Below the pieces are notes generated by a model. That model saw only the letters and a list, made by a program, of their open reading frames with translations, made no database searches and had not been told where the DNA came from. From Lichenifustis flavocetrariae (GTDB lineage Bacteria > Pseudomonadota > Alphaproteobacteria > Rhizobiales > Beijerinckiaceae): a stretch of 64,000 bases of DNA. The DNA lies in NCBI RefSeq assembly GCF_026130545.1, contig NZ_JAMOIM010000004.1:248001-312000 (forward strand), given 5' to 3'. Position 1 is the stretch's first letter. Each line of letters starts with the position of its first letter. Positions 27,626 through 52,564 of the stretch are shown one piece after another. The position numbers and the translations under genes are program-made.

Positions 27626-29593
27626 CTAAAGACCCGGAAGCTCGATCTCGGTCACGGTCTTCTTGGCGCGCGGGATCGAAGCCGGGCTCATCGAGAGTTC
27701 CTTGACTCCAAGTCGAAGGAAGATCGGGATCAGGTCCGGGCGGGCGGCGGCCTCGCCGCAGATGCCGACCCAGATGCCTTGCTGGCGCGCCGCGTCGCAG
27801 ATCAGCTCGATCGCGCGCAGGACGGCCGGATGATCGGCGCGGTTGAGATCGGCGACGCGCGGGTTGAGCCGGTCGGCCGCCATCACATATTGGGTGAGGT
27901 CATTGGTGCCGATCGAGAAGAAGGCCGCATGTTTGGCGAGGTCGGCCGCCAAAAGCGCCGCGGCCGGCGTTTCCATCATGATGCCGAGATCCGGGTTGCC
28001 GACCGGAATGCCGGCTGCATCGAGTTCCGCCCGGCACTCGGCCAGCAGGGCTTTGACGCGCAAGACCTCATCGGCATTGGTCACCATCGGCACCATGATC
28101 TTGATGTTGCCGTGGGTGGCGGCGCGCAGCAGAGCCTTGAGCTGCGGCTTGAATACGTCGGGTCGGTCGAGGCACATTCGTACGCCGCGCCAGCCCAGGA
28201 ATGGGTTCTCCTCGTGCGGAAACTCGATCCCGGCCACAGGCTTGTCGCCGCCGATGTCCAGCGTCCGCACGATCACGGGGTAGGGCGCGAAGGCGCGCGC
28301 CAGTTCCGCATAGATTTCCGCCTGCTCGTCTTCCGAGGGCAGTACCTTGCGTTCCATGAACAGGAGTTCGGTGCGGAAGAGGCCCACGCCCATGGCACCG
28401 GCTTTCAGGGCCGGCCCGATCTCCTTCAGCGAGCCCAGGTTGGCCGCGACCTCGATGGCCTGGCCGCTTCGGGTCACCGGAATGATCTGCCGGTAGCTGT
28501 CGAGCGCGTCGCGTTCGCGCGCTTCTCGCGCCACCCGCTCGCGGATCTCCGTCGCGACCGTGTCGTTCGGGTCGAGCCAGACCTCCCCTGTTTTCCCGTC
28601 GAGCGCCACGACCTGCGCGGCTCTCAGAGCCGCGAGGTCGGCTCTCGACCCGAGCACGGCGGGAATACCATGGGTGCGCGCCATGATGGCGACATGCGAT
28701 GTCGCGGCCCCTTTGGTGCAAAGAATGCCCGCGATGGCCTGCAACGGCGCCTTGGCGAAATCCCAGGCCGAGATCTCCTCCGCCACCAGGATCGCCCCTT
28801 CAGGCACCGCCCCCAGATTGGCATCGGCTTTGCCGAGCAATTCCAAAGCGAGAGCGCGAGTGACTCCCCGCACGTCTTCGGCTCGCGCTCGGATGTAATC
28901 GTTGTCGACCCTCTCGAACGTGGCGGCGAGGTCCTGGCCGGCTTGCAGCGTCGCCGTCACCGCATCCTTGCCGGTGCGGATCACGCTCTCCACCGCGCCG
29001 ATCATTTCGGCGTCGCGCGCAACCTCGATCAAGGCCTCGATGATCTGTGCGTCTTGCGGGGTGACGCCGTCTTTGAGCTTGCTGCCGATGAGGCTTGCCG
29101 TCGTCGCATCGAGCGCCCGGCGCATCATCTCGATTTCTGCCTCGATGGACTCGGTCGCCACGACTCGGTTAGGTGCTTGCAGCACTTCCGGGAAAAATCC
29201 AAAGGCGGGACCGATGGCCGCGCCTTCGCTCGCGGGAACTCCACCCGGTCCTGAAAGGACCTCTCTCCGAGGTGTGAAACTCGACGAACGTTCGTCCGCC
29301 GTCGCGAGCGGAACTGTGCCGCCGAGGTCGAGACCGGCCTCCGGGGTTTCGATGAACGTCGCGAGAGCGTCGAGGGCGGCCGGCGCGTCGTCACCCTCGG
29401 CTGTCAGCGAGACGTCCTCGCCTTCCTTGAGACCAAGCAGCATCAGCTTGACGGAGCTTTTGGCATTGGCGCCCTTGTCCCCACGCCGAATCTGGACATC
29501 GGACACGAAGGTCTTGGCCAGTTTGACGAATTGGGTGGCGGGCCGCGCGTGCAAGCCCTCCTTCACCCGGACCGTGACATGGCGTTCGATCAT
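27626..29593 (-). CDS. HPr-Enzyme I fusion, general PTS phosphotransferase
   Basis: Starting at 29593 the protein has 655 residues. Residues 1-90 are HPr with H15 in KEGLHARPAT and S46 in AKSSVKL, exactly at canonical numbers. After a linker, residues 115-655 are Enzyme I, with phospho-His H300 in GAATSHVAIMARTHG and the PEP-binding TIM barrel. It takes phosphate from PEP and passes it EI to HPr to EIIA. The HPr-first fusion differs from free ptsH and ptsI. It is the last gene of the gutM-EIIC-EIIB-EIIA operon, making that transporter self-sufficient. Confidence 0.95.
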   Translation of the reverse strand: MIERHVTVRVKEGLHARPATQFVKLAKTFVSDVQIRRGDKGANAKSSVKLMLLGLKEGEDVSLTAEGDDAPAALDALATFIETPEAGLDLGGTVPLATADERSSSFTPRREVLSGPGGVPASEGAAIGPAFGFFPEVLQAPNRVVATESIEAEIEMMRRALDATTASLIGSKLKDGVTPQDAQIIEALIEVARDAEMIGAVESVIRTGKDAVTATLQAGQDLAATFERVDNDYIRARAEDVRGVTRALALELLGKADANLGAVPEGAILVAEEISAWDFAKAPLQAIAGILCTKGAATSHVAIMARTHGIPAVLGSRADLAALRAAQVVALDGKTGEVWLDPNDTVATEIRERVAREARERDALDSYRQIIPVTRSGQAIEVAANLGSLKEIGPALKAGAMGVGLFRTELLFMERKVLPSEDEQAEIYAELARAFAPYPVIVRTLDIGGDKPVAGIEFPHEENPFLGWRGVRMCLDRPDVFKPQLKALLRAATHGNIKIMVPMVTNADEVLRVKALLAECRAELDAAGIPVGNPDLGIMMETPAAALLAADLAKHAAFFSIGTNDLTQYVMAADRLNPRVADLNRADHPAVLRAIELICDAARQQGIWVGICGEAAARPDLIPIFLRLGVKELSMSPASIPRAKKTVTEIELPGL

Positions 29594-29657
29594 CGTCGTC
29601 TTTCTATTCAGGATGGAACGCGGCACTCGCTCGATCGCGTGCCCGTCGCGTTCGAGA

Positions 29658-30038
29658 TCAGGCCGTGATGGCGATGATCGCGCCTGGCTTGAGCGAGCTG
29701 GCCAAAAGCTCGGTCGTCAGGACAGAGGCGTTCAGCTCGCCGGGCCGGTTGCTGGTCGTGGCACCATCGAAATTGACGACCACATGCCCCATGTCGGCGA
29801 TCTTGGCCCAGGCGAGCGAACCGATGGCCGTCAGCGTGGCTTCCACCTCCCCGATCCTGATCTTGGCGCCCACGGGGGGCGCTTGGGGGGTCGAGCCATC
29901 GATCACTTCATGCAGGACCGAGACTTCGGCCAGTTCCGGCGGCGCACCTGCGGCGAACAGGATGAGCACGCCGCCGTCGATGAGATCGGCCACATCGGGG
30001 CCGACCTCCGTGATCTTCGTCCTGTAGAAAGTCGTCAT
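29658..30038 (-). CDS. srlB: PTS glucitol/sorbitol-family EIIA
   Basis: This 126-residue cytoplasmic protein has the length and pattern of the EIIA(Gut) family, with phospho-acceptor H43 in SVLHEVIDGS and the MGHVVVNFDG strand. It relays phosphate from the HPr domain of the downstream fusion to the EIIB part of the upstream gene. It starts 4 bp after the EIIB stop. The symbol marks the family; actual sorbitol specificity is doubtful given the neighbouring divergent operon. Confidence 0.93.
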   Translation of the reverse strand: MTTFYRTKITEVGPDVADLIDGGVLILFAAGAPPELAEVSVLHEVIDGSTPQAPPVGAKIRIGEVEATLTAIGSLAWAKIADMGHVVVNFDGATTSNRPGELNASVLTTELLASSLKPGAIIAITA

Positions 30039-30042
30039 CGGG

Positions 30043-31050
30043 TCACATCACCAGCAGAGAGAAGATCCAGGCGATTACCACGGAGAGGGGTCCCATCACT
30101 TGCCTGCTGAGTAGAACCGCCGGCACACCGATCTCGATCGTCTTGGGCTTGGCCTCACCGAGCGCCAGACCCACTGGAATGAAGTCGCAGCCCACCTGCG
30201 TGTTGTAGGCGAAGAGCGCCGGAAGGCTCATCGCGGGCGAGATCGTCCCGTTCTGGATTTGCGGGCCGATGATGGCGACGCCGATCACCTGCGCGATGAC
30301 GGCGCCCGGGCCGAGGATAGGCGACAGAAACGGCAAACCACAGACGGCCGAGATAACAAGCAGGCCGACGATGTTGTTGGCCAGCGGGCCCATCGGCTTG
30401 GCGATGATATCGCCGATGCCGGTGTAGAGGATGATGCCGATCAACATGGTCACGAAGGCCATGAAGGGCAGCACGTTCCGGACAACCTGATCGATCGTCC
30501 GTCGGCCGGCATTGAAGAAAATGCCGACGACGCGCCCCATGACACGGCCGATACTGGCGATCAGGTTGATGAACCCACCACCCCCGGTCTCCGGCGCAAC
30601 GGTCGGCTTCGCCGTCACGTTCGGGGCTGCCGCGGCGACTCCGGCCGCCGTCGGCGCAGCCGATCCATCCGCGAATTCGACGTTTCTATCCTTCACGCCG
30701 GACACATAGATGTCTTCGGTGATGAATTGCGCCAGCGGCCCCGACTGTCCGACGGGCGTGAGGTTGATGGTCGGGATCCGCTTGCGCGGATAAACGCCAC
30801 ACCGGGCCGTGCCGCCGCAATCCACGACGACGCAGGCCATTTCCGATTCGGGTGGAGGTTGTCGAAAGCCGTCGACCGCGATACCGCCGGTCATTTCGGC
30901 AATGAGCTTCGCCAGCGGCGGAATCCCGCCGCCCGTCACGGCGACGATCTTGTCACGCTGACTGGTGGGCTCGATCACAAGCGGGCCGCCCCAGCCGTTG
31001 GGGCCCTGGTTGATCTTGACGGCCTTATACTTGGCCTCGGTGAGTGCCAT
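30043..31050 (-). CDS. srlE: PTS glucitol/sorbitol-family EIIB (with membrane domain)
   Basis: The 335-residue protein opens with the EIIB domain: phosphocysteine region VVDCGGTARCGVYPRKRIPT (C73/C78), then GPLAQFITEDIYVSGVKDRN. After an Ala/Pro linker come about four membrane helices of the C-terminal half of the glucitol permease. In this PTS family the membrane channel is split between EIIC and EIIB genes, as seen here. It accepts phosphate from EIIA and phosphorylates the incoming polyol. Confidence 0.94.
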   Translation of the reverse strand: MALTEAKYKAVKINQGPNGWGGPLVIEPTSQRDKIVAVTGGGIPPLAKLIAEMTGGIAVDGFRQPPPESEMACVVVDCGGTARCGVYPRKRIPTINLTPVGQSGPLAQFITEDIYVSGVKDRNVEFADGSAAPTAAGVAAAAPNVTAKPTVAPETGGGGFINLIASIGRVMGRVVGIFFNAGRRTIDQVVRNVLPFMAFVTMLIGIILYTGIGDIIAKPMGPLANNIVGLLVISAVCGLPFLSPILGPGAVIAQVIGVAIIGPQIQNGTISPAMSLPALFAYNTQVGCDFIPVGLALGEAKPKTIEIGVPAVLLSRQVMGPLSVVIAWIFSLLVM

Positions 31051-31070
31051 GACGCTTCCCCTTGAATTTT

Positions 31071-31880
31071 TTAGAGTTCTACGCCCTGGCGGCGCGCCAT
31101 GAAGGCTGTGATGCGTTCGGTTACGATGCCCTTGAGAAGAATGACGATCAGGCCGACGATGAAGTACCAGATGGCCAATTTGACGTGATAGCCCTCCGGC
31201 ACGACGCCTCGCTTCTCGAGGTCGAGCAGGGCCACGAGCACACCGCCCCAGACGAAGTATTCACCGGCATTCGCATGCGGGAAGAGGCCCAAGATCGGAT
31301 GCACGAACGAGACCGCCGAATCGTAGAAGGCGGGTTTGTGCTTTTCCTCGAGGAAGGTTCCGAACGTATAGGCCATCGGGTTGGTGAGGAAAAACACCGA
31401 CAGGACCGGGAGAACTGTATAACGGGTCAGGGCGACCTTCCCCATCGATTGCGCAAAGCCGTGCACACGCTCTTCGCCGATCAAGCCTGTGAGCGCGTAA
31501 AACGCCGTCATGAGCACCACGAGCGTCGGAATGATGCCGGTGACGAAGCCCACGAAGACCTCGCCGCCCTTCTGGAACATGCCGATGAAATGCGAGCCGA
31601 TATTGCCGAGCCATCCGAGCTGGTCGGCCGTCGGCTTCAGATTCTTCACCTCGTTCTGATATTTGGTGAGCGCATCGGCGGCCGACGCCGGCGCGTCAGG
31701 CGCCGCGGCCTGTGCGAGCACGATGGCGTTCCTGTGCAATTCGGCCGCAACCCCGGGTCTCGCGGCATCGGTCTGGCCGAGAGCGATGTCGATCGCGTGC
31801 CACCCGGCGTCGTGTAAGGCCGCGAGCGTCGTGCCGTGTGCCATGAGTTCTATGGCGTGTGCCGCTGTGTCGACAAGCAT
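31071..31880 (-). CDS. srlA: PTS glucitol/sorbitol-family EIIC with N-terminal extension
   Basis: The core from about residue 88 matches the EIIC(Gut) permease (FQKGGEVFVGFVTGIIPTL, FFLTNPMAYTFGTFLEEKHKP, GLFPHANAGEYFVW), with about four membrane spans. The protein is 269 residues against about 187 in E. coli SrlA; the extra part is an Ala/His-rich N-terminal segment of about 88 residues with no recognised domain. With the EIIB membrane part it forms the polyol channel. The gene is second in the operon, 25 bp after gutM. Confidence 0.93.
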   Translation of the reverse strand: MLVDTAAHAIELMAHGTTLAALHDAGWHAIDIALGQTDAARPGVAAELHRNAIVLAQAAAPDAPASAADALTKYQNEVKNLKPTADQLGWLGNIGSHFIGMFQKGGEVFVGFVTGIIPTLVVLMTAFYALTGLIGEERVHGFAQSMGKVALTRYTVLPVLSVFFLTNPMAYTFGTFLEEKHKPAFYDSAVSFVHPILGLFPHANAGEYFVWGGVLVALLDLEKRGVVPEGYHVKLAIWYFIVGLIVILLKGIVTERITAFMARRQGVEL

Positions 31881-31905
31881 GGTCAGTCCTCCCCTCGATG
31901 TTGCG

Positions 31906-32316
31906 TCAGGCCGCCGCTTCCACGCGTTGCTGAAGTTTCAGCGCGGCTCTTTCGATTTGCTCGGCGGCCTTGATCAGCGCCCCGCCGGTCGCTTTGTCCC
32001 GGAAGGCCGGCTCTTCGGGCAGGTCGTCCAAGGTCTTGCCTTCGATGGTCGACAACCGCGCAAATCGGGCGAAGACGGTGCGTCCCCGCATGATCAGCGC
32101 GCGACGCACGGTCCGATCCGGGCTGACCACCAGCAGCAGTATGACCCCGGCCCCAAAGGTCGAGCGCGCATTGCCGGCCCCGACAAAACCATCGGGCCAG
32201 AGGCGGGAGACGTCGCCCATCGTCGCACTGAAGTGCCGCATCTGAACATAGGTGCCGAGCGCCTGCAGACCCCAGGCCACCACAAGCCCCATCAGTGCAA
32301 TCTGCCATAATGGCAT
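31906..32316 (-). CDS. gutM: GutM/SrlM-like protein of the PTS operon
   Basis: The ATG at 32316 has TAGGAGGAA 6 bases upstream, the strongest ribosome site of the operon. The 136-residue protein begins with a membrane helix (LWQIALMGLVVAWGLQAL) and continues GTYVQMRHFSATMGDV, the GutM pattern. In E. coli GutM (SrlM) is described as an activator of the glucitol operon, though a membrane-anchored small protein may act indirectly. It is the first gene of the PTS operon. Confidence 0.88.
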   Translation of the reverse strand: MPLWQIALMGLVVAWGLQALGTYVQMRHFSATMGDVSRLWPDGFVGAGNARSTFGAGVILLLVVSPDRTVRRALIMRGRTVFARFARLSTIEGKTLDDLPEEPAFRDKATGGALIKAAEQIERAALKLQQRVEAAA

Positions 32317-32510
32317 CGACGTTCCTCCTATTACCGGTCTTGCCGCCGGTCTGCCAGGTTCTGCCCTGGAAGCTATCCTCAATAGAGAACATTTGAAATA
32401 TGCGGTGTCAATATGTTCCGGTCGCGAAATCGTGAGCGACAGGAGCGGGTTTTTCCACCAAACAGGGCGTGCCAAATAAGCATATTGCGGTGCGCCAAAG
32501 GTGAGGATGC
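32317..32510. promoter_or_regulatory. divergent control region of the PTS and DRL operons
   Basis: This 194-bp region drives the PTS operon (minus) and the unknown/DRL/E1/E2 operon (plus). It is AT-richer than its surroundings and holds a near-direct repeat, AATATGCGGTG (32397-32407) and ATATTGCGGTG (32482-32492). The spacing could suit one regulator controlling both promoters. No classical DNA-binding regulator gene is in the island. Confidence 0.5.
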
Positions 32511-33158
32511 ATGGATCTCGAAATCACGCGCCACGTGATGGAAGTGCCGGATCTGCGGCACCGCGTCCGACAGTTGCGTTGGTTCAAGACGTCGTTTCGG
32601 CAACATGCCCGGTTGGTCGGTCAACACTATGGGCTTGCGGTCCGGGTCGACGAAACGCGTTTGACCGAGGCCTTCCTCAATTGGGCTGAACGGTTTTCTG
32701 CCGATAAGGACTATGCGCGGCTCGACCGTCGCGACTTCGTGACCTTCACGGGCGGACTTCTTCTGCGCGAGTTGTTGCAACTCCACCCCGTCGAGGTCGA
32801 GGCGAGCACCGCGACCGGAATGCCCACATTGCAGCAGACGCCGAATTGGGCGATCGTTCACGATTGGCCCGAAGGCTTCATATCGACCAATTATTGCTTG
32901 AGTATCCTGGCGGCCGTGTTGGAGCAGGAAGGCATGCCGCTGACGATCCCGGCTTTGGCCAACGATTTGCGGACGTGGTGGTCCTATCGAGAAAATGTCG
33001 GCGAAGATCCTTCGCGCGCGATCGCCTTTCTCGACCTTTTCACCGGCACCGAACCGAATTGGTACATGCCCGACTCGGTCGCCAGCCGGACGGCGATTAA
33101 ACGCGCTCTACAGGCCAAGGTTGTTCCGGACAGCGTGACGACTGAAGTCGCAGTCTGA
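32511..33158 (+). CDS. unknown protein, first gene of the DRL operon
   Basis: The ATG at 32511 follows GTGAGGATGC. The 215-residue product is soluble, rich in aromatic residues (RWFKTSF, RTWWSYREN, TEPNWYMPD) and shows no signal or membrane segment. I recognise no family. Its place as the first gene of the divergent operon, 69 bp before DRL, suggests a specific part in this island: a regulator, small enzyme or folding factor are all possible. One part (AFLDLFTGTEPNWYMPD) looks like a conserved C-terminal motif. Confidence 0.75.
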   Translation: MDLEITRHVMEVPDLRHRVRQLRWFKTSFRQHARLVGQHYGLAVRVDETRLTEAFLNWAERFSADKDYARLDRRDFVTFTGGLLLRELLQLHPVEVEASTATGMPTLQQTPNWAIVHDWPEGFISTNYCLSILAAVLEQEGMPLTIPALANDLRTWWSYRENVGEDPSRAIAFLDLFTGTEPNWYMPDSVASRTAIKRALQAKVVPDSVTTEVAV

Positions 33159-33227
33159 AGTTTGTATTGACGACTGTACAATTGTTCGATAGCTCATGGG
33201 GCAAGCTAACGGAACCGGATAGGTCTG

Positions 33228-34577
33228 ATGCAGAATTTCATCGGGTTGGCCGCCGAACTCGCGGCGCGCGCTGAGCGGCAGGGCCCGATCACCATCGGTC
33301 TCGCCGGTGCGGGCCAGATGGGAACCGATATCATCGTTCAGGTCAGCATGATGCCGGGCATCCGCATCGGCGCCATATCTGAAATCCGGCTGCAGAATGC
33401 CATCGACGCGATCCTCATGTCGGGTCGCGAGCGGGGCGATATCGTCGATGCGAAATCGGCCAGCGATATCGATCTGGCGATCGAGACCGGCCGCGTGGCT
33501 GTCACCGACGACTACAAGGCCCTTTGTGCCTCGGGGCGGATCGATGTCGTCATCGATGCGACGGGAAATCCGAATGTCGGGACGCTCGTGGCGCTGGAAG
33601 CCATGCGGAACGGTAAGCATGTCGTGATGCTGAACGTCGAGGCCGACATCACGATCGGCCGTTTCCTCAAGGAAGAGGCCGACAAGGCGGGTGTGGTATT
33701 TACGGGTGCGGCGGGCGATGAGCCGGCCTGCGCGCTCGAACTGATTTCCTTCGCGCAAAGCTGCGGGTTCGACATCGTGGCGGCCGGCAAGGGCAAGAAC
33801 AATCCACTCAAATTCGACGCCATGCCGGAGGACTACGAGGCCGAGGCCCGGGCCCGCAACATGAGCGCCCGAATGCTCGTCGAATTCGTCGACGGCTCGA
33901 AGACCATGATCGAGATGGTGGCCATCGCCAACGCGACCGGCCTTGTGCCCGATGTCCCCGGCATGCACGGCCCTGCCGCCACCCGCGAGCAATTGGCACA
34001 GGTTCTCTGCACGAAGGAAGACGGCGGCATCTTGAACAAGACTGGGGTCGTCGACTACTCCATTGGTAAGGGAGTGGCTCCCGGCGTGTTCTGCATTGTC
34101 AAGCCGCGTCACGATCGCGTGACCGAGCGGATGATCGACCTGAAGGTCGGTCCAGGGCCGTGTTTCTCGCTGCTGCGCCCCTACCATCTCACGAGTCTCG
34201 AAGTGCCGCTGTCAGCGGCGCGGGCCGTGATGCACGGGAAGGCCGATATGGTGCCACTGGATCATCCGGTGGCCGAATGCGTGACGGTCGCCAAGCGCGA
34301 CCTTCAACCCGGCCAGACGCTCGAAGCGATCGGCCTGCACGACTACCGGGGTTTCGCCATGACTTGGGCCGACGCCCGCACGGAGGGCGCGATCCCGCTC
34401 GGCATCGCCGAAAAGGCCAAGGTGATGAAGCCCATCAAGGCCGGTGAGAAGCTGACCTACGACAATTGCGTTCCTGACGACTCGCTCGTGGTGACGCAGA
34501 TCCGCAAGCGGCTCGATCAATCGGACGCCCGGTTCATGGGCAGCAATCCCCAGCTACAGGAGCGGCTGCGCGCCTGA
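33228..34577 (+). CDS. DXR-like (DRL/DXR-II family) NAD(P)-dependent oxidoreductase with SAF domain
   Basis: The 449-residue protein has an N-terminal Rossmann motif (ITIGLAGAGQMGTD, 21-34), a catalytic middle with GKGKNNPLKFD near 187-197 and SIGKGVAPGVF, and a C-terminal SAF domain (AVAKRDLQPGQTLEAIG style). This is COG4091, the homoserine-dehydrogenase-like family that includes Brucella DRL, shown to convert 1-deoxyxylulose 5-phosphate to methylerythritol 4-phosphate with NADPH. Relatives may have other substrates. Here it sits between a PTS and an acyloin-cleaving complex, which favours catabolic use in the oxidative direction. The substrate is inferred. Confidence 0.88.
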   Translation: MQNFIGLAAELAARAERQGPITIGLAGAGQMGTDIIVQVSMMPGIRIGAISEIRLQNAIDAILMSGRERGDIVDAKSASDIDLAIETGRVAVTDDYKALCASGRIDVVIDATGNPNVGTLVALEAMRNGKHVVMLNVEADITIGRFLKEEADKAGVVFTGAAGDEPACALELISFAQSCGFDIVAAGKGKNNPLKFDAMPEDYEAEARARNMSARMLVEFVDGSKTMIEMVAIANATGLVPDVPGMHGPAATREQLAQVLCTKEDGGILNKTGVVDYSIGKGVAPGVFCIVKPRHDRVTERMIDLKVGPGPCFSLLRPYHLTSLEVPLSAARAVMHGKADMVPLDHPVAECVTVAKRDLQPGQTLEAIGLHDYRGFAMTWADARTEGAIPLGIAEKAKVMKPIKAGEKLTYDNCVPDDSLVVTQIRKRLDQSDARFMGSNPQLQERLRA

Positions 34578-34652
34578 ACGGCGCCTCCGCGACACAATCT
34601 CAGCGGGCCGACGGCGGCAACAGTCGGGCGCCAACCCGAAGGAAACGACGGC

Positions 34653-35705
34653 ATGACCATGCAAGTCACGGATGGCGGTCGAGCGCAGCCAACGCCCGTT
34701 CCGGTGCAGGCTGATGGGGGATCGAACCTGCCCGCCATCTACCAGCGCCTTGGTCGGGATGCGCTCAGGGACGCGCTGAAGAAGATGCATCTGATCCGGC
34801 TCTTCGAGGAGGGCGCCGAAAAGGCCTATATGCGGGGCCTGATCCACGGAACCATGCATCTGTCGATCGGCCAGGAGGCGAGCGCCGTCGGCACCTGCAT
34901 GCCACTCAGCGACGCCGATTACATCACCTCCACCCACCGCGGCCACGGCCATTGCATCGCCAAGGGCGCTGATGTCGGGCGCATGTTCGCCGAGTTCTTC
35001 GGCAAAGAGACCGGCTATTGCCATGGCCGGGGCGGCTCCATGCACATCGCCGATGTGGCCAAGGGCAATCTCGGCGCCAATGGCATCGTGGGCGGCGGTA
35101 TTCCAATCGCTGTCGGGGCGGCGCTGTCGGCCAAGCGCCGGAAGACGACCCAGGTCGTCGTCTCGTTTTTCGGCGACGGCGCCAACAATGAAGGCGCATT
35201 TCATGAGGCCTTGAACATGGCCTCGGTCTGGAAACTGCCCGTGGTGTTCGTCTGCGAGAACAACCGCTACGGCATGTCGACCTCGACGGAGCGTTCTACG
35301 GCGGTCGCCAATGTGGCGGATCGCGCGGTCGCCTATGCGATGCCGGGCGTCATCGTCGACGGCAACGATTTCGCGGCCGTGGCCCAGGCCTCTTTCGATG
35401 CGGTCGACCGGGCCCGGCGTGGCGAAGGGCCGACGCTGATCGAATCCAAGACCTACCGGATCCGCGGCCATTCACGCTCCGACCGCAACCGCTATCGCAC
35501 CAAGGAAGAGATCGAGGAATGGCGTGGGCGTGACCCGATCGTCGCCTTCGAAAAGGAACTGCTCGATCTGGGCCTCCTCACCCGCGACGAGAGCGAGGCG
35601 GTGCGGGCCGAGGCTGAACGAGAGATCGAGGCGGCAATCAATTTTGCGGCCGAAAGCCCAGCCCCGCCGCTCAAGGATCTCACGCGGTTTGTTTACTCGA
35701 ATTGA
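34653..35705 (+). CDS. acoA: acetoin-dehydrogenase-type TPP-dependent E1 alpha subunit
   Basis: The 350-residue protein is the alpha subunit of a heterotetrameric E1. The TPP/Mg motif runs from GDGANNEGAFHEALN near residue 174 to the Asn of CENNRYG; THRGHGHCIAKG and the phosphorylation-loop-like RIRGHSRSDRNRYR are also present. Sequence style is closer to acetoin dehydrogenase (AcoA) and PDH alpha than to branched-chain 2-oxoacid E1. It starts 75 bp after the DRL gene. In acetoin dehydrogenase this E1 cleaves an acyloin, leaving hydroxyethyl-TPP; here the substrate may be the DRL product. Confidence 0.92.
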   Translation: MTMQVTDGGRAQPTPVPVQADGGSNLPAIYQRLGRDALRDALKKMHLIRLFEEGAEKAYMRGLIHGTMHLSIGQEASAVGTCMPLSDADYITSTHRGHGHCIAKGADVGRMFAEFFGKETGYCHGRGGSMHIADVAKGNLGANGIVGGGIPIAVGAALSAKRRKTTQVVVSFFGDGANNEGAFHEALNMASVWKLPVVFVCENNRYGMSTSTERSTAVANVADRAVAYAMPGVIVDGNDFAAVAQASFDAVDRARRGEGPTLIESKTYRIRGHSRSDRNRYRTKEEIEEWRGRDPIVAFEKELLDLGLLTRDESEAVRAEAEREIEAAINFAAESPAPPLKDLTRFVYSN

Positions 35706-35898
35706 AGCGGGCGGCTCAGCCGACCGCATTCAAGATCGATGATGAAAGCCGGACTGCAGCTTCTATCCTGCCATCATGTAGGGGGTGGGGGGTGCCTGGT
35801 ACCGGGCCATCCCGGCGCAGAGTTCCTTTTGGCTTTCCGACGCCCACCCTAGCCCCTCTCCATCAGGGAGACGGGAATGTCATCCGGAGCACCGCCTC
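35706..35898 (+). repeat. 193-bp spacer with decayed palindromic repeat between E1 genes
   Basis: The spacer between E1 alpha and E1 beta contains CCCCTCTCC-ATCA-GGGAGACGGG (35853-35874), a nearly palindromic element, and CCGGG-CCAT-CCCGG just before it. The first resembles the palindrome in midA (57432-57454). It looks like a degenerate copy of a dispersed palindromic repeat. Such a spacer inside an operon could form a stem that adjusts downstream expression. The E1 beta GGAG lies 10 bases before its ATG. Confidence 0.6.
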
Positions 35899-36897
35899 AT
35901 GGACGCCGCCGTCCGAGAACTGAGCTATGCGCAGGCCATTCAAGAAGCCATGGCGATCGCCATGGAGGCCGATGAAAACGTGATCTTGATGGGCGAAGAC
36001 ATCGGGGTTTATGGCGGCGCCTTCCAGGTCACGGGCGACCTGGTGCATCGCTTCGGCGAAGACCGGGTGATGGACACGCCGATCTCGGAACTCGGCGGCG
36101 CCGGTGTCGCGGTCGGCGCGGCGCTCACCGGATTGAAGCCGATCTTCGAATTTCAGTTCTCTGATTTCGCGACTCTCGCGATGGAGCAGATCGTCAACCA
36201 GGCCGCCAAGATCCGTTACATGCTCGGTGGCGAAGTGAGCGTGCCGCTCGTCATGCGCTTTCCGGCCGGTAGCGGCACCGGCGCGGCCGCCCAGCACAGC
36301 CAGAGCCTGGAAGCCTGGCTCGCGCATGTCCCCGGCCTGAAGGTCGTGCAGCCCTCGACGCCGTATGACGTGAAAGGCCTGCTGCTTGCCGCGATCGCCG
36401 ATCCCGACCCGGTGATGATCTTCGAACACAAGCTCCTCTACAAGATGAAGGGGCCGGTGCCGGAGGGCAGCTATACGGTGCCGATCGGCAAGGCCGAGAT
36501 CCGACGTCAGGGCAGCCACGTGACGATCGTGGCCACCGCCATCATGGTGCATCGAGCGCTCGAAGCTGCCATCGAACTCGCCAAGGACGGTATCGAGGCG
36601 GAGGTGATCGACCTGCGCTCGCTGCGGCCGATGGACACTGGTACCATCATCGAAAGCGTCAAGAAGACCGGCAAGCTGATCTGCGTCTACGAGGGCGTGA
36701 AGACGCTCGGCATCGGCGCGGAAATCTCGGCCGCGATCGCCGAGAGCGAGGCCTTCGACTACCTCGACGCGCCGATCCTGAGGCTCGGCGGGGCGGAATG
36801 CCCGATCCCGTATAATCCCGATCTCGAAAAGACAGCCGTTCCACAGGTCGACACGATCCTGGCGGCGGCGCGTTCCCTGCTCGCCGGGAGGCTCTGA
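35899..36897 (+). CDS. acoB: acetoin-dehydrogenase-type TPP-dependent E1 beta subunit
   Basis: I start it at ATG 35899 (332 residues, GGAG 10 bases upstream); a longer frame from 35785 would run through the repeat-derived spacer. It has the transketolase-like pyrimidine-binding fold ([29 protein letters not shown]) and the C-terminal domain with [13 protein letters not shown]. It pairs with E1 alpha to form the active site. Its TGA overlaps the E2 start (TGATG), so translation is coupled. Confidence 0.93.
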
Positions 36898-38309
36898 TGC
36901 CAAGCGAGGTCATTCTGCCCCGCGTGGACATGGACATGGCCACGGGCAAGATTTCAAAATGGCTGGTGCCCCCCGGTGCCACGGTAACCAAGGGACAGCC
37001 TCTCTTCGAGATCGAAACCGACAAGGCCACGATGGAGATCGAGGCCGAAGCCGACGGGACGATCCGGGATCTCGTCGACGCGTCCGCCAGGGATATCCCG
37101 GTGGGCAGCGTGGTGGCCTGGATCGATGCGGCAGGCGAAGCTGCCGCAGAGAAGCCGGCTGCGGCCGAACCCGCGCCGGCTCCGCCGCGCGGCCGTCAAC
37201 AGGACGAGGGCGCCGAGCAGGCCGTTGCTGAGTCGCCCGGAACCCCCAAAGTGTCCTCCGGTGGATTGGCCAGGGTGATCGGACGGGAACGCGCGACCCC
37301 GCTGGCACGGCGCCTTGCGCGTGAGCACGGGATCGCATTGGCCGACCTGCGCGGCTCGGGTCCTCGGGGACGTATTCAAGCATCTGACGTCGCAGCGGCC
37401 TCGAAGCCGGTTCTGCTGGAACCTCGTCCTGCAAGGTCCATCCCGGAGGCGTCACCCCCAGCGACGAAAAGCCTCTTTGCTGCCGGGGATTCCACAAACC
37501 CCGAAACCACGCCCGTTGCCGCATCGGCCGCGCCGCTCTCACCGGGTTCCGCCACCCTCGTGCGATTGCGGGAAGGAGATGGGACACCGCTGGTCCTGAT
37601 TCACGGCTTTGGCTCGGAGGCCAACGGCTGGCGCCCGTTCTTGACCGGCCAGAGCTTCACCGGTCCGGTCTTCGGCCTTGATCTTCCCGGACATGGCGGC
37701 GCGGCCGGCAATGCCGTCGCGGGGTTCGACGATCTCGTCGATGCAGCCGAATCCGCGCTCTTGGAGGCCGGGCTTAAGGGTGCGATCGATGTGGTCGGGC
37801 ACTCTCTCGGCGGAGCCGTCGCGGCCTCGATGGCCGAGCGCGGGATGCTCGACGTCCGGTCTCTTCTTCTGCTGTCGCCGGCCGGCTTGGGACCGGAGAT
37901 CAATGGCGGGTTTCTCCAGGGCTATCTGGGGGCAACCTCGGAGACGTCATTGCGGCCCTGGATGCTGGAACTGGTGGTCGACCCTCAAACGATCACGCCG
38001 GCCCTGGTTCGTGCGACCCTCAAGGCTCGCCAGCGATCCGCTGGCGTCGAGGCTCAGCGGAGAGTGGCCGCGGCTGTTTTCCCGGACGGCACGCAGTGCT
38101 TCTCGATCCGGGCGGATCTGGCGCGGCTCCGGATGCCGGTCCGGGTGATCTTCGGAACGGACGACAGGATCATCCCGGCTCGGCACGCTGCCGGCCTGCC
38201 GCCGCTCGTGGCCCTCCATCTGCTGCCCAACATCGGCCATATGCCACACTTCGAAGCGTCCGAGGTCGTAACCACCATCCTGAACCAAGTGATTGACCCA
38301 CAACGGTAA
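36897..38309 (+). CDS. acoC: lipoyl-E2 with alpha/beta-hydrolase domain (AcoC type)
   Basis: The 470-residue protein has a lipoyl domain (about 1-78) with the lipoyl-Lys K43 in ETDKATME, a Pro/Ala linker, a subunit-binding domain (133-165, ATPLARRLAREHGIALADLR), a second linker, then from about 220 an alpha/beta hydrolase with nucleophile S303 in VVGHSLGGAV, an Asp in FGTDDRIIP and a His in NIGHMPHFE. The usual catalytic E2 acyltransferase domain is absent, as in acetoin dehydrogenase AcoC. It carries the acetyl group from E1 to CoA; the E3 gene is not in the window. Confidence 0.92.
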   Translation: MPSEVILPRVDMDMATGKISKWLVPPGATVTKGQPLFEIETDKATMEIEAEADGTIRDLVDASARDIPVGSVVAWIDAAGEAAAEKPAAAEPAPAPPRGRQQDEGAEQAVAESPGTPKVSSGGLARVIGRERATPLARRLAREHGIALADLRGSGPRGRIQASDVAAASKPVLLEPRPARSIPEASPPATKSLFAAGDSTNPETTPVAASAAPLSPGSATLVRLREGDGTPLVLIHGFGSEANGWRPFLTGQSFTGPVFGLDLPGHGGAAGNAVAGFDDLVDAAESALLEAGLKGAIDVVGHSLGGAVAASMAERGMLDVRSLLLLSPAGLGPEINGGFLQGYLGATSETSLRPWMLELVVDPQTITPALVRATLKARQRSAGVEAQRRVAAAVFPDGTQCFSIRADLARLRMPVRVIFGTDDRIIPARHAAGLPPLVALHLLPNIGHMPHFEASEVVTTILNQVIDPQR

Positions 38310-38430: not shown

Positions 38431-39216
38431 ATGCGGCGTTCGGCCAACAACCTCTTGCACTCGATCAAGGATCAGGTCCGCAACGTGCGGTATACGATTC
38501 GGGCCGAGGCCGATGCGCCTGGTTCGGGCTTGCCGAAGGCGGTGGGCAACATTGATCTCGGTCCGCTGATTGCCATCGGCTCCGTCGTCAGCACGCCCGC
38601 CTTGCGGGTGGTCGACGGCATTTTTACACAGGTCGAGTCCCTGGCCACGGAGGTGATGAAGCCACGCGGCAAGTTGGAGCTGCGGTTCCCGCTTCACATC
38701 GGCGCCTACCTTGACGGCGACGGTAGCTTTTCCGCGTATCTGTACGAGGCCTACAAGGATCTGACCGAAGTGCAGGGCGTTCGTAACGTCTTGATTTCCG
38801 AGCATGCCTTGGATGACGCGCAGGCCAAATTCCAGGCTCGCCATTCGGATGCCGCCGCGTCGAGGACACGTGGGTCGGGACAGGGCAGGGCGACGGATTT
38901 GGTGCAGCTCTGCGCCGGTCTCGCCTGCGCGCTTGTCGATGCGCGTCCGATCCGCAAGCTGGAATTCGGTGGTTCCGATATGGGCAATCAAAGCTTCATG
39001 CTGTCGCCGAACATCTACTGTGGTGTCGCGATCGGTCTGGTGACGGCCCTCGTTACCCAGAACCCGGCCTTACGGGATGACATTGAGAGCCTTCAGGACA
39101 GCGTCGGCTCCGTCGTCAGTGCGCGTTTCGACCGGTTCAAGCGTGCTCTTTCGGGTAAATCCCCGATCATTGATTTGGCGAAGCAATTCGAGGCCGTTCT
39201 TCCCTTCCTGCCTTAG
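38431..39216 (+). CDS. unknown soluble protein downstream of the E2 gene
   Basis: The 261-residue protein starts at ATG 38431 with AGGTGT upstream. It has no signal peptide; a central Ser/Arg/Gly-rich loop (around residues 137-152) separates two more conserved-looking halves. No recognised family. The hairpins ahead of it suggest separate transcription from the E1/E2 operon, so any role in the island is open. Confidence 0.65.
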   Translation: MRRSANNLLHSIKDQVRNVRYTIRAEADAPGSGLPKAVGNIDLGPLIAIGSVVSTPALRVVDGIFTQVESLATEVMKPRGKLELRFPLHIGAYLDGDGSFSAYLYEAYKDLTEVQGVRNVLISEHALDDAQAKFQARHSDAAASRTRGSGQGRATDLVQLCAGLACALVDARPIRKLEFGGSDMGNQSFMLSPNIYCGVAIGLVTALVTQNPALRDDIESLQDSVGSVVSARFDRFKRALSGKSPIIDLAKQFEAVLPFLP

Positions 39217-39436: not shown

Positions 39437-41164
39437 TCAGTCCGGCGTTGCCGGGGCTGTATAACGCTGCTCTACCGCGGCCCGCACCATTTTGCGGGAT
39501 TCAGCGACGTCGATGCTCTCGTTGGCGGCGATATTCGCGATCTCGTCGGCCAACTCCTCGTCCTTGATCGACGTGCGAAGCCAGGTGTCGACATCCCCAT
39601 TCCGCAAGTGGAACAGGTAGGTCTCGGCATCGACGCCATCGCCAATGTCGAGGAACATCGACAGGTTATGCGCCCGGATGTCGAGGCGATCCTCGGGGCC
39701 TTTGAAGTAGAAGCTCCGGTCGGGGCCCAAGGTGCCCTGGGCATATTTGCGCGTATGCCGCTTGACCGCCCCTTTGGGCTTTTCGGTTCGGATCAGCACA
39801 GGTGGCTCATTGGTGCGGCAAGCCCAGAACACGGCCTCGCCCACCTCCGGTCCTCGTTCCGGGAGAACCGGGCAGGGGCGGCCAAACTCTTGACTGAGGG
39901 ATTCGATCAGGCCGAGGCTGTTCCGCCCAATGATCAGCACGGTTCCGACGCTCCGAAGCGCCGCCGCGGCGAGCGTGTCCGGGTGCACGGTGATGAAGAT
40001 GGTCGGGACCTGGGCGTCGAGGTTGATCCCGGCCCCGGCGTCTTGCCCGCGCGGCAGCATGTGATGGGCTTCGTCGATCAAGATCCAGTGGGGCCGGCCA
40101 TAGCGAGCCCGGATGTCGAGAACGGCGGGTAGCAGGTTGGCTAGGACTTCGGGCCGATCCTCCACGCTCGAGCCGAGAAGATTGGCCGTGACATTGGTGC
40201 CGAGCTTCCGCACGGCGTCGAGCACCGCTTCGGGAGCCACCGGCGTGTTGGCGTCGCCGAACGTGACTGTCGGCGCGAAATTATCGTAGTCACCCTCGGG
40301 ATCGAACAGGCAGAGCTGGAAATCGGCTTCCGCGAGTCGTTCCAACAGGGCCGTCGCGAGCGTCGACTTGCCTCCACCCGAGGTGCCGGTGATCAGCACG
40401 CTGCCGCGATCGGGCCTCAAGCTGACCTCCTGGCCAAGGCCAAGGGTGGCCCCGATCAACACCGAATGGCGATAGATCGCCGCGTCGAGAAGTTCGCCCT
40501 CGCGATCGATCCAGCGGTCGATCAGTTCGGCCACACCGGCTCCACGAGGGGCGTCTGTCACCATATCGGCTGCCTCCTTCACGGCCGGCAGGGCGTTGCC
40601 GACCGCGACCGCGCAGCCGCAGGTCCGCATGAAGGCGAGGTCGTTCTCCGCGTCGCCGGTTGCCACCACATTGTGGGCGCTGAGACCCATATCTTCCAAG
40701 GCCGCCCCAAGTCCCGACGCCTTGTTGATACCGTTCGGGAGCACCATGACGGCGCCCTTGTTGAAGATGATCTGCAGATCGAGCCCGAGATCGCGGATCG
40801 CCTCGAGAACGGCGGTTTCGTTCGGCTCCCACGTCGCCACGATCACCTGGCCGATCGACAGCGGCTGCAGGCCGAGGCTCTGGAGGCGGTCCACGAATGC
40901 CGGCGGCGGCGGCGGTCCGAGGGGACGTTCCTCCTTGGTGGCGGGGTTGTAGAGCAGGGCGCCGTTTTCGACCACGACACGGTCGAACAGATCGAGGCGG
41001 GGGCAGACACGTTGCAGGTCGGGCAATTCGCGTCCCGTCACCATGATGAGGCGACGCCCGGCCCGCTTCAGGCGGTCGAGCGCCATGATGGTCGCCTCGT
41101 CGACGACGCCGTCATGCGCGATCGTGCCGTCATAGTCGGTGGCGAGTGCCCGGAAATATTGCAT
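39437..41164 (-). CDS. HAD-superfamily hydrolase fused to HerA-like P-loop ATPase
   Basis: Residues 1-215 are a Cof-type HAD phosphatase: nucleophile D10 with D12 in ATDYDGT, MVTGRE, the Lys of GINKASGLG and GDAENDLAFM. Residues 230-575 are a HerA/DUF853-like ATPase with Walker A GTSGGGKST near 261 and Walker B WILIDEAHH near 360. All catalytic motifs look intact in both halves, so both activities are possible. Which sugar phosphate and which polymer or partner they act on is unknown. The nearest upstream gene is divergent (a glycerophosphodiesterase). Confidence 0.88.
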   Translation of the reverse strand: MQYFRALATDYDGTIAHDGVVDEATIMALDRLKRAGRRLIMVTGRELPDLQRVCPRLDLFDRVVVENGALLYNPATKEERPLGPPPPPAFVDRLQSLGLQPLSIGQVIVATWEPNETAVLEAIRDLGLDLQIIFNKGAVMVLPNGINKASGLGAALEDMGLSAHNVVATGDAENDLAFMRTCGCAVAVGNALPAVKEAADMVTDAPRGAGVAELIDRWIDREGELLDAAIYRHSVLIGATLGLGQEVSLRPDRGSVLITGTSGGGKSTLATALLERLAEADFQLCLFDPEGDYDNFAPTVTFGDANTPVAPEAVLDAVRKLGTNVTANLLGSSVEDRPEVLANLLPAVLDIRARYGRPHWILIDEAHHMLPRGQDAGAGINLDAQVPTIFITVHPDTLAAAALRSVGTVLIIGRNSLGLIESLSQEFGRPCPVLPERGPEVGEAVFWACRTNEPPVLIRTEKPKGAVKRHTRKYAQGTLGPDRSFYFKGPEDRLDIRAHNLSMFLDIGDGVDAETYLFHLRNGDVDTWLRTSIKDEELADEIANIAANESIDVAESRKMVRAAVEQRYTAPATPD

Positions 41165-50392: not shown

Positions 50393-52438
<2,046 letters not shown>

Positions 52439-52564
52439 GCTGCGCTCCATTCCGGTCAGCGGACGGCCGGCCCGCTTCTCGGAAATTATTTGTGTGCTCA
52501 TCCACATCCCTGGAGGTTCGCGACCTGCTGCGTTCAAGCATCGCACCAAGACTATAAGCTCGTG

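Follow-up and report, generated by a model that had tools for sequence, protein, structure and literature searches.

Erythritol catabolism (Ery) in rhizobia and Brucella begins with polyol uptake and phosphorylation, is accompanied by a SorC-type regulator, and runs through a tetritol-phosphate dehydrogenase and isomerases into the pentose phosphate pathway. The glucitol/sorbitol phosphotransferase system (PTS) is composed of SrlA, SrlE, SrlB and GutM, and acetoin dehydrogenase AcoABC of E1alpha, E1beta and an E2 with lipoyl and alpha/beta-hydrolase domains. The DXR-II (DRL) family, with Brucella DRL (3upl; Carretero-Paulet 2013), is known as biosynthetic and converts 1-deoxyxylulose 5-phosphate (DXP) to 2-C-methyl-D-erythritol 4-phosphate (MEP). 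Relatives of the last three systems are encoded side by side in Lichenifustis flavocetrariae, within a stretch of 64,000 nucleotides (positions 248,001 to 312,000 of contig NZ_JAMOIM010000004.1) that is referred to here as the window. Ten genes are confirmed there in two divergent units, one on the minus strand (27626-32475, window positions) and one on the plus strand (32511-38309). Both units together probably constitute one catabolic module for 2-C-methyl-D-erythritol (ME); the module itself is well supported, and ME is its predicted substrate.

DXR-II and the divergent operon

The DXR-II gene is located at 33228..34577 on the plus strand. Its product contains DRL_cat (PF21135, 217.2 bits against a cut-off of 27) and NAD_binding_3 (PF03447, 28.2 bits against a cut-off of 24) and aligns gap-free with Brucella DRL 3upl over 426 residues (512 bits). 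Excerpts of Carretero-Paulet 2013 (PMC3847144; the other papers cited by PMC number are likewise drawn on as excerpts) divide the family into DXR-II, 11 members of which make MEP by complementation, and two DLO clades, of which four representatives failed complementation. Five diagnostic DXR-II sites taken from the same source (K191, K193, T229, H250 and R320, numbered 3 lower in the window protein) are all kept in the window protein and in every one of the 157 distinct DXR-II sequences gathered, of which 47 come from modules. The 41 DLO sequences do not keep these residues as a set (K191 in 41, K193 in 0, T229 in 2, H250 in 2 and R320 in 25), which rules out a DLO-type oxidoreductase. By its sequence the window protein is a true DXR-II, and the sequence-only reading, which had called it a DRL/DXR-II-type relative, is borne out by the domains, the alignment and the residue set.

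The minus-strand unit contains every component of the glucitol/sorbitol PTS. Nearest the divergence point lies the gene for GutM (31906..32475; PF06923, with the domain from residue 61 and an uncertain start at TTG 32475), followed by an SrlA-like EIIC (31071..31880; PF03608, EII-GUT, with NF049923 above cut-off), an SrlE-like EIIB (30043..31050; PF03612 and PF07663, the N- and C-terminal parts of EIIBC-GUT, with NF049924 above cut-off) and an EIIA (29658..30038; PF03829, PTSIIA_gutA). All Pfam models of these three enzymes II score above cut-off; NF007696 and TIGR00849 remain below theirs for EIIA. Unlike the known system, the window set has its own HPr-enzyme I (EI) fusion (27626..29626; PF00381, PF05524, PF00391 and PF02896, with TIGR01417 above cut-off), proposed to be a dedicated phosphate donor, and Pfam annotation identifies no polyol dehydrogenase, including sorbitol-6-phosphate dehydrogenase, among the operon genes. 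Polyol uptake and phosphorylation are shared with Ery, as is the SorC-type regulator in relatives of the module, whereas the tetritol-phosphate dehydrogenase and isomerases are not in the window operon and an acetyl-CoA-forming cleavage is proposed instead of pentose phosphate entry.

On the plus strand, DXR-II is preceded by UNK215 (32511..33158), which matches no Pfam or NCBIfam family, and followed by a thiamine diphosphate-dependent E1alpha (34653..35705; PF00676, E1_dh), an E1beta (35896..36897; PF02779, Transket_pyr, and PF02780, Transketolase_C; the start is either GTG 35785 or ATG 35896) and an AcoC-type E2 (36897..38309; Biotin_lipoyl, E3_binding and alpha/beta hydrolase). The E2 scores 361.9 bits against the NCBIfam acetoin-dehydrogenase acetyltransferase model NF011457/PRK14875 (cut-off 307). 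For E1alpha, the score against TIGR03182 (PDH_E1_alph_y), a pyruvate dehydrogenase (PDH) equivalogue, is 380.9 bits, just below the cut-off of 393.85, and that against TIGR03181 is 271.2 bits (cut-off 411.35). An E3 gene is absent from the operon, and no search for E3 was made elsewhere in the genome. Pfam and NCBIfam thus confirm the earlier gene calls of a complete glucitol PTS divergent from an unknown protein, a DRL and E1alpha, E1beta and lipoyl-E2. The E1/E2 set has the composition of AcoABC, but it is linked to DXR-II and to phosphorylating uptake, and its proposed substrate is a sugar phosphate; this genome context argues for a substrate other than acetoin.

The host genome (7.5 Mb, 180 contigs) contains one DXR-II copy, a DXR-I on contig C63 and a 1-deoxyxylulose 5-phosphate synthase (DXS) on contig C41. 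Since DXS and DXR-I are encoded elsewhere, the operon DXR-II is not needed by the host for isoprenoids, and the copy on C63 rules it out as the sole DXR. A second E1alpha, on contig C92, is 41% identical to the operon E1alpha and scores higher on PF00676, which rules out the operon E1 as the only PDH-type E1 of the cell. The known biosynthetic DXR-II differs from the window copy, which is situated in an operon for uptake and predicted acetyl-CoA formation in a genome with DXR-I.

In the proposed pathway, the glucitol-type PTS, driven by its own HPr-EI, would import ME and release it as MEP, which DXR-II, run backwards, would convert to DXP. E1alpha/beta would then take DXP as an acyloin (CH3-CO-CHOH-R), cut between C2 and C3 and release glyceraldehyde 3-phosphate, the enzyme families being established and the substrate predicted; this is the reverse of the carbon-carbon bond formation by DXS. 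The acetyl unit would be held on thiamine diphosphate and transferred to CoA by the lipoyl E2, with E3 supplied from elsewhere in the genome. The predicted net reaction is ME + phosphoenolpyruvate + NADP+ + NAD+ + CoA to pyruvate + acetyl-CoA + glyceraldehyde 3-phosphate + NADPH + NADH. From ME uptake to central metabolism every step except E3 has a candidate gene; were deoxyxylulose itself the substrate, DXR-II would be superfluous. UNK215 may be a dedicated accessory or regulatory protein, judging by co-occurrence, and in other genomes an ATP-binding cassette (ABC) transporter with a PfkB kinase would stand in for the PTS. According to PMC13001223, DXR catalyses a reversible reaction. Formation of 1-deoxyketoses, which runs opposite to the cleavage proposed here, is reported for PDH and for acetoin dehydrogenase (PMC3424233, its reference 39); the same paper states that purified PDH makes 1-deoxyxylulose and that DXP from a mutant PDH E1 suffices to substitute for DXS.

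Recurrence of the module

In an order-level sample of 297 genomes, DXR-II (counted at at least 50% identity) was found in 61 genomes with a total of 77 copies. The strict module, defined as DXR-II with E1alpha and E1beta, each at least 60% identical, within 8.7 kb, is present in 24 genomes spanning 12 genera; a looser threshold (E1 at least 40%) gave 25 genomes, and G278, with an E1 pair 46-47% identical, is dropped under the strict count. DXR-I, whose presence, like that of UNK215 and EIIC below, was read from search match lists, occurs in 241 genomes, including 10 of the 61 with DXR-II, which leaves 51 without it. Of the 24 module genomes, 19 have another DXR (DXR-I or an additional DXR-II that is not in the module), as do 5 of the 37 other DXR-II genomes; hence a solitary DXR-II is usually the only DXR found, and a module copy usually is not.

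Overall, uptake in the 24 module genomes is covered by a glucitol PTS in 14 and by an ABC transporter with PfkB kinase in 9. The genes adjoin the module as PTS in 11 and as the ABC transporter type ABC1 in 9; the PTS is on another contig in G189 and G224 and approximately 13 kb away on the same contig in G279, and in G188 genes for an ABC1 ATPase and PfkB adjoin the module. Glucitol EIIC was detected in 17 of the 297 genomes, comprising 14 module genomes, two with DXR-II elsewhere (G141 and G190) and G095. In G141 a cluster of PTS, UNK215 and E1/E2 is on a different contig from DXR-II. The G095 locus (C71, L259) is a decayed module in which intact PTS, UNK215 and regulator genes surround short E2 and DXR-II fragments, and neither DXR-I nor DXR-II was found in this genome at the thresholds used. 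Across the order, DXR-II, E1/E2 and a system for uptake and phosphorylation occur together, in line with the single route of the sequence-only reading, which had named such a survey as a check; an ABC transporter and kinase can replace the PTS, with the phosphorylation step retained.

The loci themselves were compared in a set of 172 after deduplication (one duplicate dropped), with open reading frames in loci of high guanine plus cytosine content chosen by a codon-bias picker; the 80 named loci are the best-scoring ones and not a random sample. E1alpha, E1beta and E2 accompany DXR-II at 12 of 66 loci where DXR-II is at least 62% identical, at 27 of 61 where it is 50-61% identical, and at 1 of 4 in Firmicutes; an E1 pair or PTS was found at 0 of 41 DLO loci. 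PTS or ABC1 uptake genes are present at 28 of the 39 DXR-II loci with an E1 pair and at 1 of the 88 without (127 DXR-II loci). A PTS-type module is carried by Terrarubrum flagellatum, with UNK215 not in that stretch. The type with ABC transporter, sugar kinase and lpdA occurs in Sinorhizobium meliloti Rm41, Agrobacterium tumefaciens CFBP7129 and Rhizobium sophoriradicis, the first two of which also have lipA in the module, and Aminobacter provides a further named plasmid example of DXR-II beside the E1 pair. The catalytic domain of E2 is swapped between modules, being an alpha/beta hydrolase in the window and a classical acyltransferase in S. meliloti. In a tree of 143 sequences built by a quick method, each of the two alphaproteobacterial branches contains module copies, and the PTS and ABC types are intermingled.

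A reverse search with E1beta alone against 72,556 plasmid records led back to DXR-II. By comparison of match positions, 33 of the 34 records at at least 62% identity, several of them near-identical strains, have DXR-II within 8 kb, Priestia, a Firmicute, among them. The one exception is Rhizobium sp. SSA_523, which encodes a UNK215 relative, E1 and E2 together with no DXR-II within 9 kb, and is not among the 60 DXR-II plasmid matches listed (31 more are unlisted). Conversely, E1beta is present in 32 of 38 plasmid records with DXR-II at at least 50% identity, the six others being five Phyllobacterium records and Pararhizobium sp. A13.

A separate search for UNK215 with a 13-row profile, independent of the module search, in the same 297 genomes identified it in 28, namely all 24 strict module genomes and 4 of the 273 others (G141, G095, G122 and G278); in some, such as G063 and G170, it is located away from the module. 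In a phylum sample of 387 genomes, UNK215 was found in 11, all within the 17 with DXR-II, and 10 of these 11 are also in the order sample. The newly sampled one, G544, has UNK215 and DXR-II approximately 4 kb apart on one contig. Two UNK215 copies are on one plasmid of S. meliloti Rm41. The protein features the conserved stretches WPEG and W(W)SFREN / EPNW. Its profile gave a single chance-level match to PDB sequences (E 1.5), and at E values up to 1 no Pfam family was matched by more than one of the 13 members. An AlphaFold model from 4 rows (mean predicted local distance difference test score 50.4, predicted template modelling score 0.44) is too poor for a fold search. UNK215 appears to be an undescribed protein family. 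A second unnamed family, HypB (232 aa, no Pfam domain), represented at 781-1479 of L036 with relatives in L034, L042, L148 and L266, lies beside UNK215 in some module loci.

The Firmicutes evidence comes from the plasmid collection, in which four genera are represented by a single locus each. The Listeria innocua, Ligilactobacillus salivarius and Enterococcus raffinosus loci combine DXR-II with GutM, EIIC, EIIB, EIIA and a SorC-like regulator, and the Ligilactobacillus stretch also holds fructose-6-phosphate aldolase and transketolase. The Priestia locus contains DXR-II, an FGGY kinase, a major facilitator superfamily (MFS) transporter and E1/E2/E3.

Other DXR-II contexts were also observed. 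Mesorhizobium loci and one from a Rhizobiales isolate (L047-L056, L058-L060, L063-L065 and L083) place DXR-II with an FGGY kinase, a SorC-type regulator and a sugar ABC transporter with no E1/E2, and at L047, the one locus looked at, an MR/MLE-type enzyme is upstream; this looks like a different pathway that uses DXR-II. A class II aldolase immediately precedes DXR-II at L073, L078, L079, L088, L090, L114 and L221, most of which have ABC transporter and FGGY genes; a relative of fructose-6-phosphate aldolase is additionally encoded at L078 and L079. Aldolase cleavage possibly takes the place of E1/E2 at these loci.

Copy number varies among relatives. Two Ochrobactrum-group genomes and three Mesorhizobium genomes have two DXR-II copies each, a Falsochrobactrum genome has one, and one copy of the Ochrobactrum group is inside a PTS and E1/E2 module (L109, L110). 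Additional functional DXR-II paralogues are reported for both Ochrobactrum anthropi and Mesorhizobium loti (PMC3847144), so it is possible that MEP formation by a module-type DXR-II is already on record.

Directly after E2 in the window, a gene at 38431..39216 on the plus strand encodes a 261-aa protein with no Pfam family, which is a possible further member of the operon and has weak relatives in module loci L085, L109, L110 and L206. The gene product at 39437-41164 has a HAD-type phosphatase domain fused to a HerA/DUF87-like ATPase domain. A sigma-70 gene with region 1.1 at 50393-52549 probably encodes the primary sigma factor, and for this reason the region looks chromosomal.

Counter-evidence and competing explanations

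The catabolic route is supported by the co-occurrence survey, by the usual presence of another DXR and by a predicted chemistry that calls for no extra enzyme except E3; to what the sequence-only reading had proposed, the present analysis adds the occurrence of DXS and DXR-I at other sites in the genome, a close association with UNK215 at genome level and a connection that spans phyla. Several observations weigh against it. The module is absent from 37 of the 61 DXR-II genomes, and the Fisher values for co-occurrence ignore kinship between genomes. No other DXR was found in five module genomes (G079, G165, G170, G239 and G291), where the module copy may also serve biosynthesis. E1 or PTS clusters occur with no adjoining DXR-II in G141, G190 and Rhizobium sp. 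SSA_523, there is no E1/E2 within approximately 9 kb at the Listeria, Ligilactobacillus and Enterococcus loci, and other DXR-II contexts feature an aldolase or MR/MLE enzyme. UNK215 is in the same stretch at 20 of the 39 loci with an E1 pair, Terrarubrum not among them, and it fills no explained step of the scheme. PTS and ABC families do not fix a substrate, and the proposed activities, growth and expression are predictions from genome data. Wild-type Escherichia coli PDH gave insufficient DXP in vivo (PMC3424233). The next-best E1beta match after the 34 plasmid records, at 59% identity, is on a Clostridioides difficile plasmid, where E1, E2 and E3 genes are clustered with a different PTS and the stretch contains no DXR-II; related E1 pairs therefore probably serve other substrates. 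This plasmid cluster (L267, L268) also has an MFS transporter, a sugar-binding regulator, a class II aldolase and a lipoate ligase, and may be a module that cleaves a different acyloin substrate.

The same chemistry could be directed at another branched or deoxy polyol, such as 2-C-methyl-D-threitol or a C6 homologue, which would yield a 1-deoxyketose phosphate for cleavage by E1/E2. The association data name no substrate, and a broader set of substrates for the family is suggested by other clades, where DXR-II adjoins aldolases, FGGY kinases and an MR/MLE enzyme; this alternative is nevertheless unlikely, as K191, K193 and T229, which anchor fosmidomycin and substrate, are retained in all 157 DXR-II gathered and the 11 tested family members make MEP (PMC3847144). 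It is highly improbable that the operon boosts isoprenoid synthesis, with E1 as an alternative DXP synthase, DXR-II making MEP and the PTS as an unrelated neighbour. The window genome already has DXS and DXR-I, an E2, joined in relatives by E3 and lipoyl synthase, would be useless for carboligation, and uptake genes of two unrelated kinds repeatedly accompany the module but seldom a DXR-II locus that lacks E1 (1 of 88), even if a mutated PDH-type E1 can make DXP (PMC3424233) and many genomes show no DXR other than DXR-II (DXR-I is missing from 51 of the 61). The NCBIfam labels, glucitol/sorbitol for EIIB and EIIC and acetoin dehydrogenase for E2, would fit a sorbitol PTS that merely adjoins an acetoin-dehydrogenase operon in which DXR-II happens to be included. 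Such a chance arrangement is the least credible explanation, given the pairing of DXR-II with E1 in 24 genomes of 12 genera, the presence of UNK215 in all 24, the finding of DXR-II near E1beta in 33 of the 34 plasmid records and an operon with no polyol dehydrogenase.

Implications for the DXR-II family

Catabolism of ME by the module would bear on the distribution of its reductoisomerase. Among the best-ranked matches in the open-access literature searched, no methylerythritol catabolic route and no DXR-II in a catabolic operon was found; the component families are known, and the pathway appears to be undescribed. The distribution of DXR-II is reported to be patchy and often redundant (PMC3847144), and no defining pattern of its occurrence has emerged according to the excerpted text of PMC13001223. 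In the excerpts of PMC3847144, Finegoldia and Anaerococcus have DXR-II, with other enzymes of the MEP or mevalonate pathways not found. It is conceivable, and put forward tentatively, that DXR-II across Alphaproteobacteria and Firmicutes serves chiefly, and perhaps from its origin, in ME catabolism, and that lineages without DXR-I took over this catabolic enzyme, working in reverse, for housekeeping isoprenoid synthesis.

ME and ME-glucosides accumulate in plants (PMC11192765), and 2-methyltetrols in aerosol are derived from isoprene (PMC11868990), so that ME catabolism, if true, would complete a carbon cycle linking the isoprenoid metabolism of plants, aerosol and bacteria of soil or plants. 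UNK215 would be marked out as a new family and a dedicated partner of the module. The catabolic role would also answer the puzzle of a patchy, often redundant and seemingly spare DXR-II; as the main role of the family, it would account for the retention of DXR-II alongside DXR-I as well as in bacteria for which no isoprenoid pathway is known.

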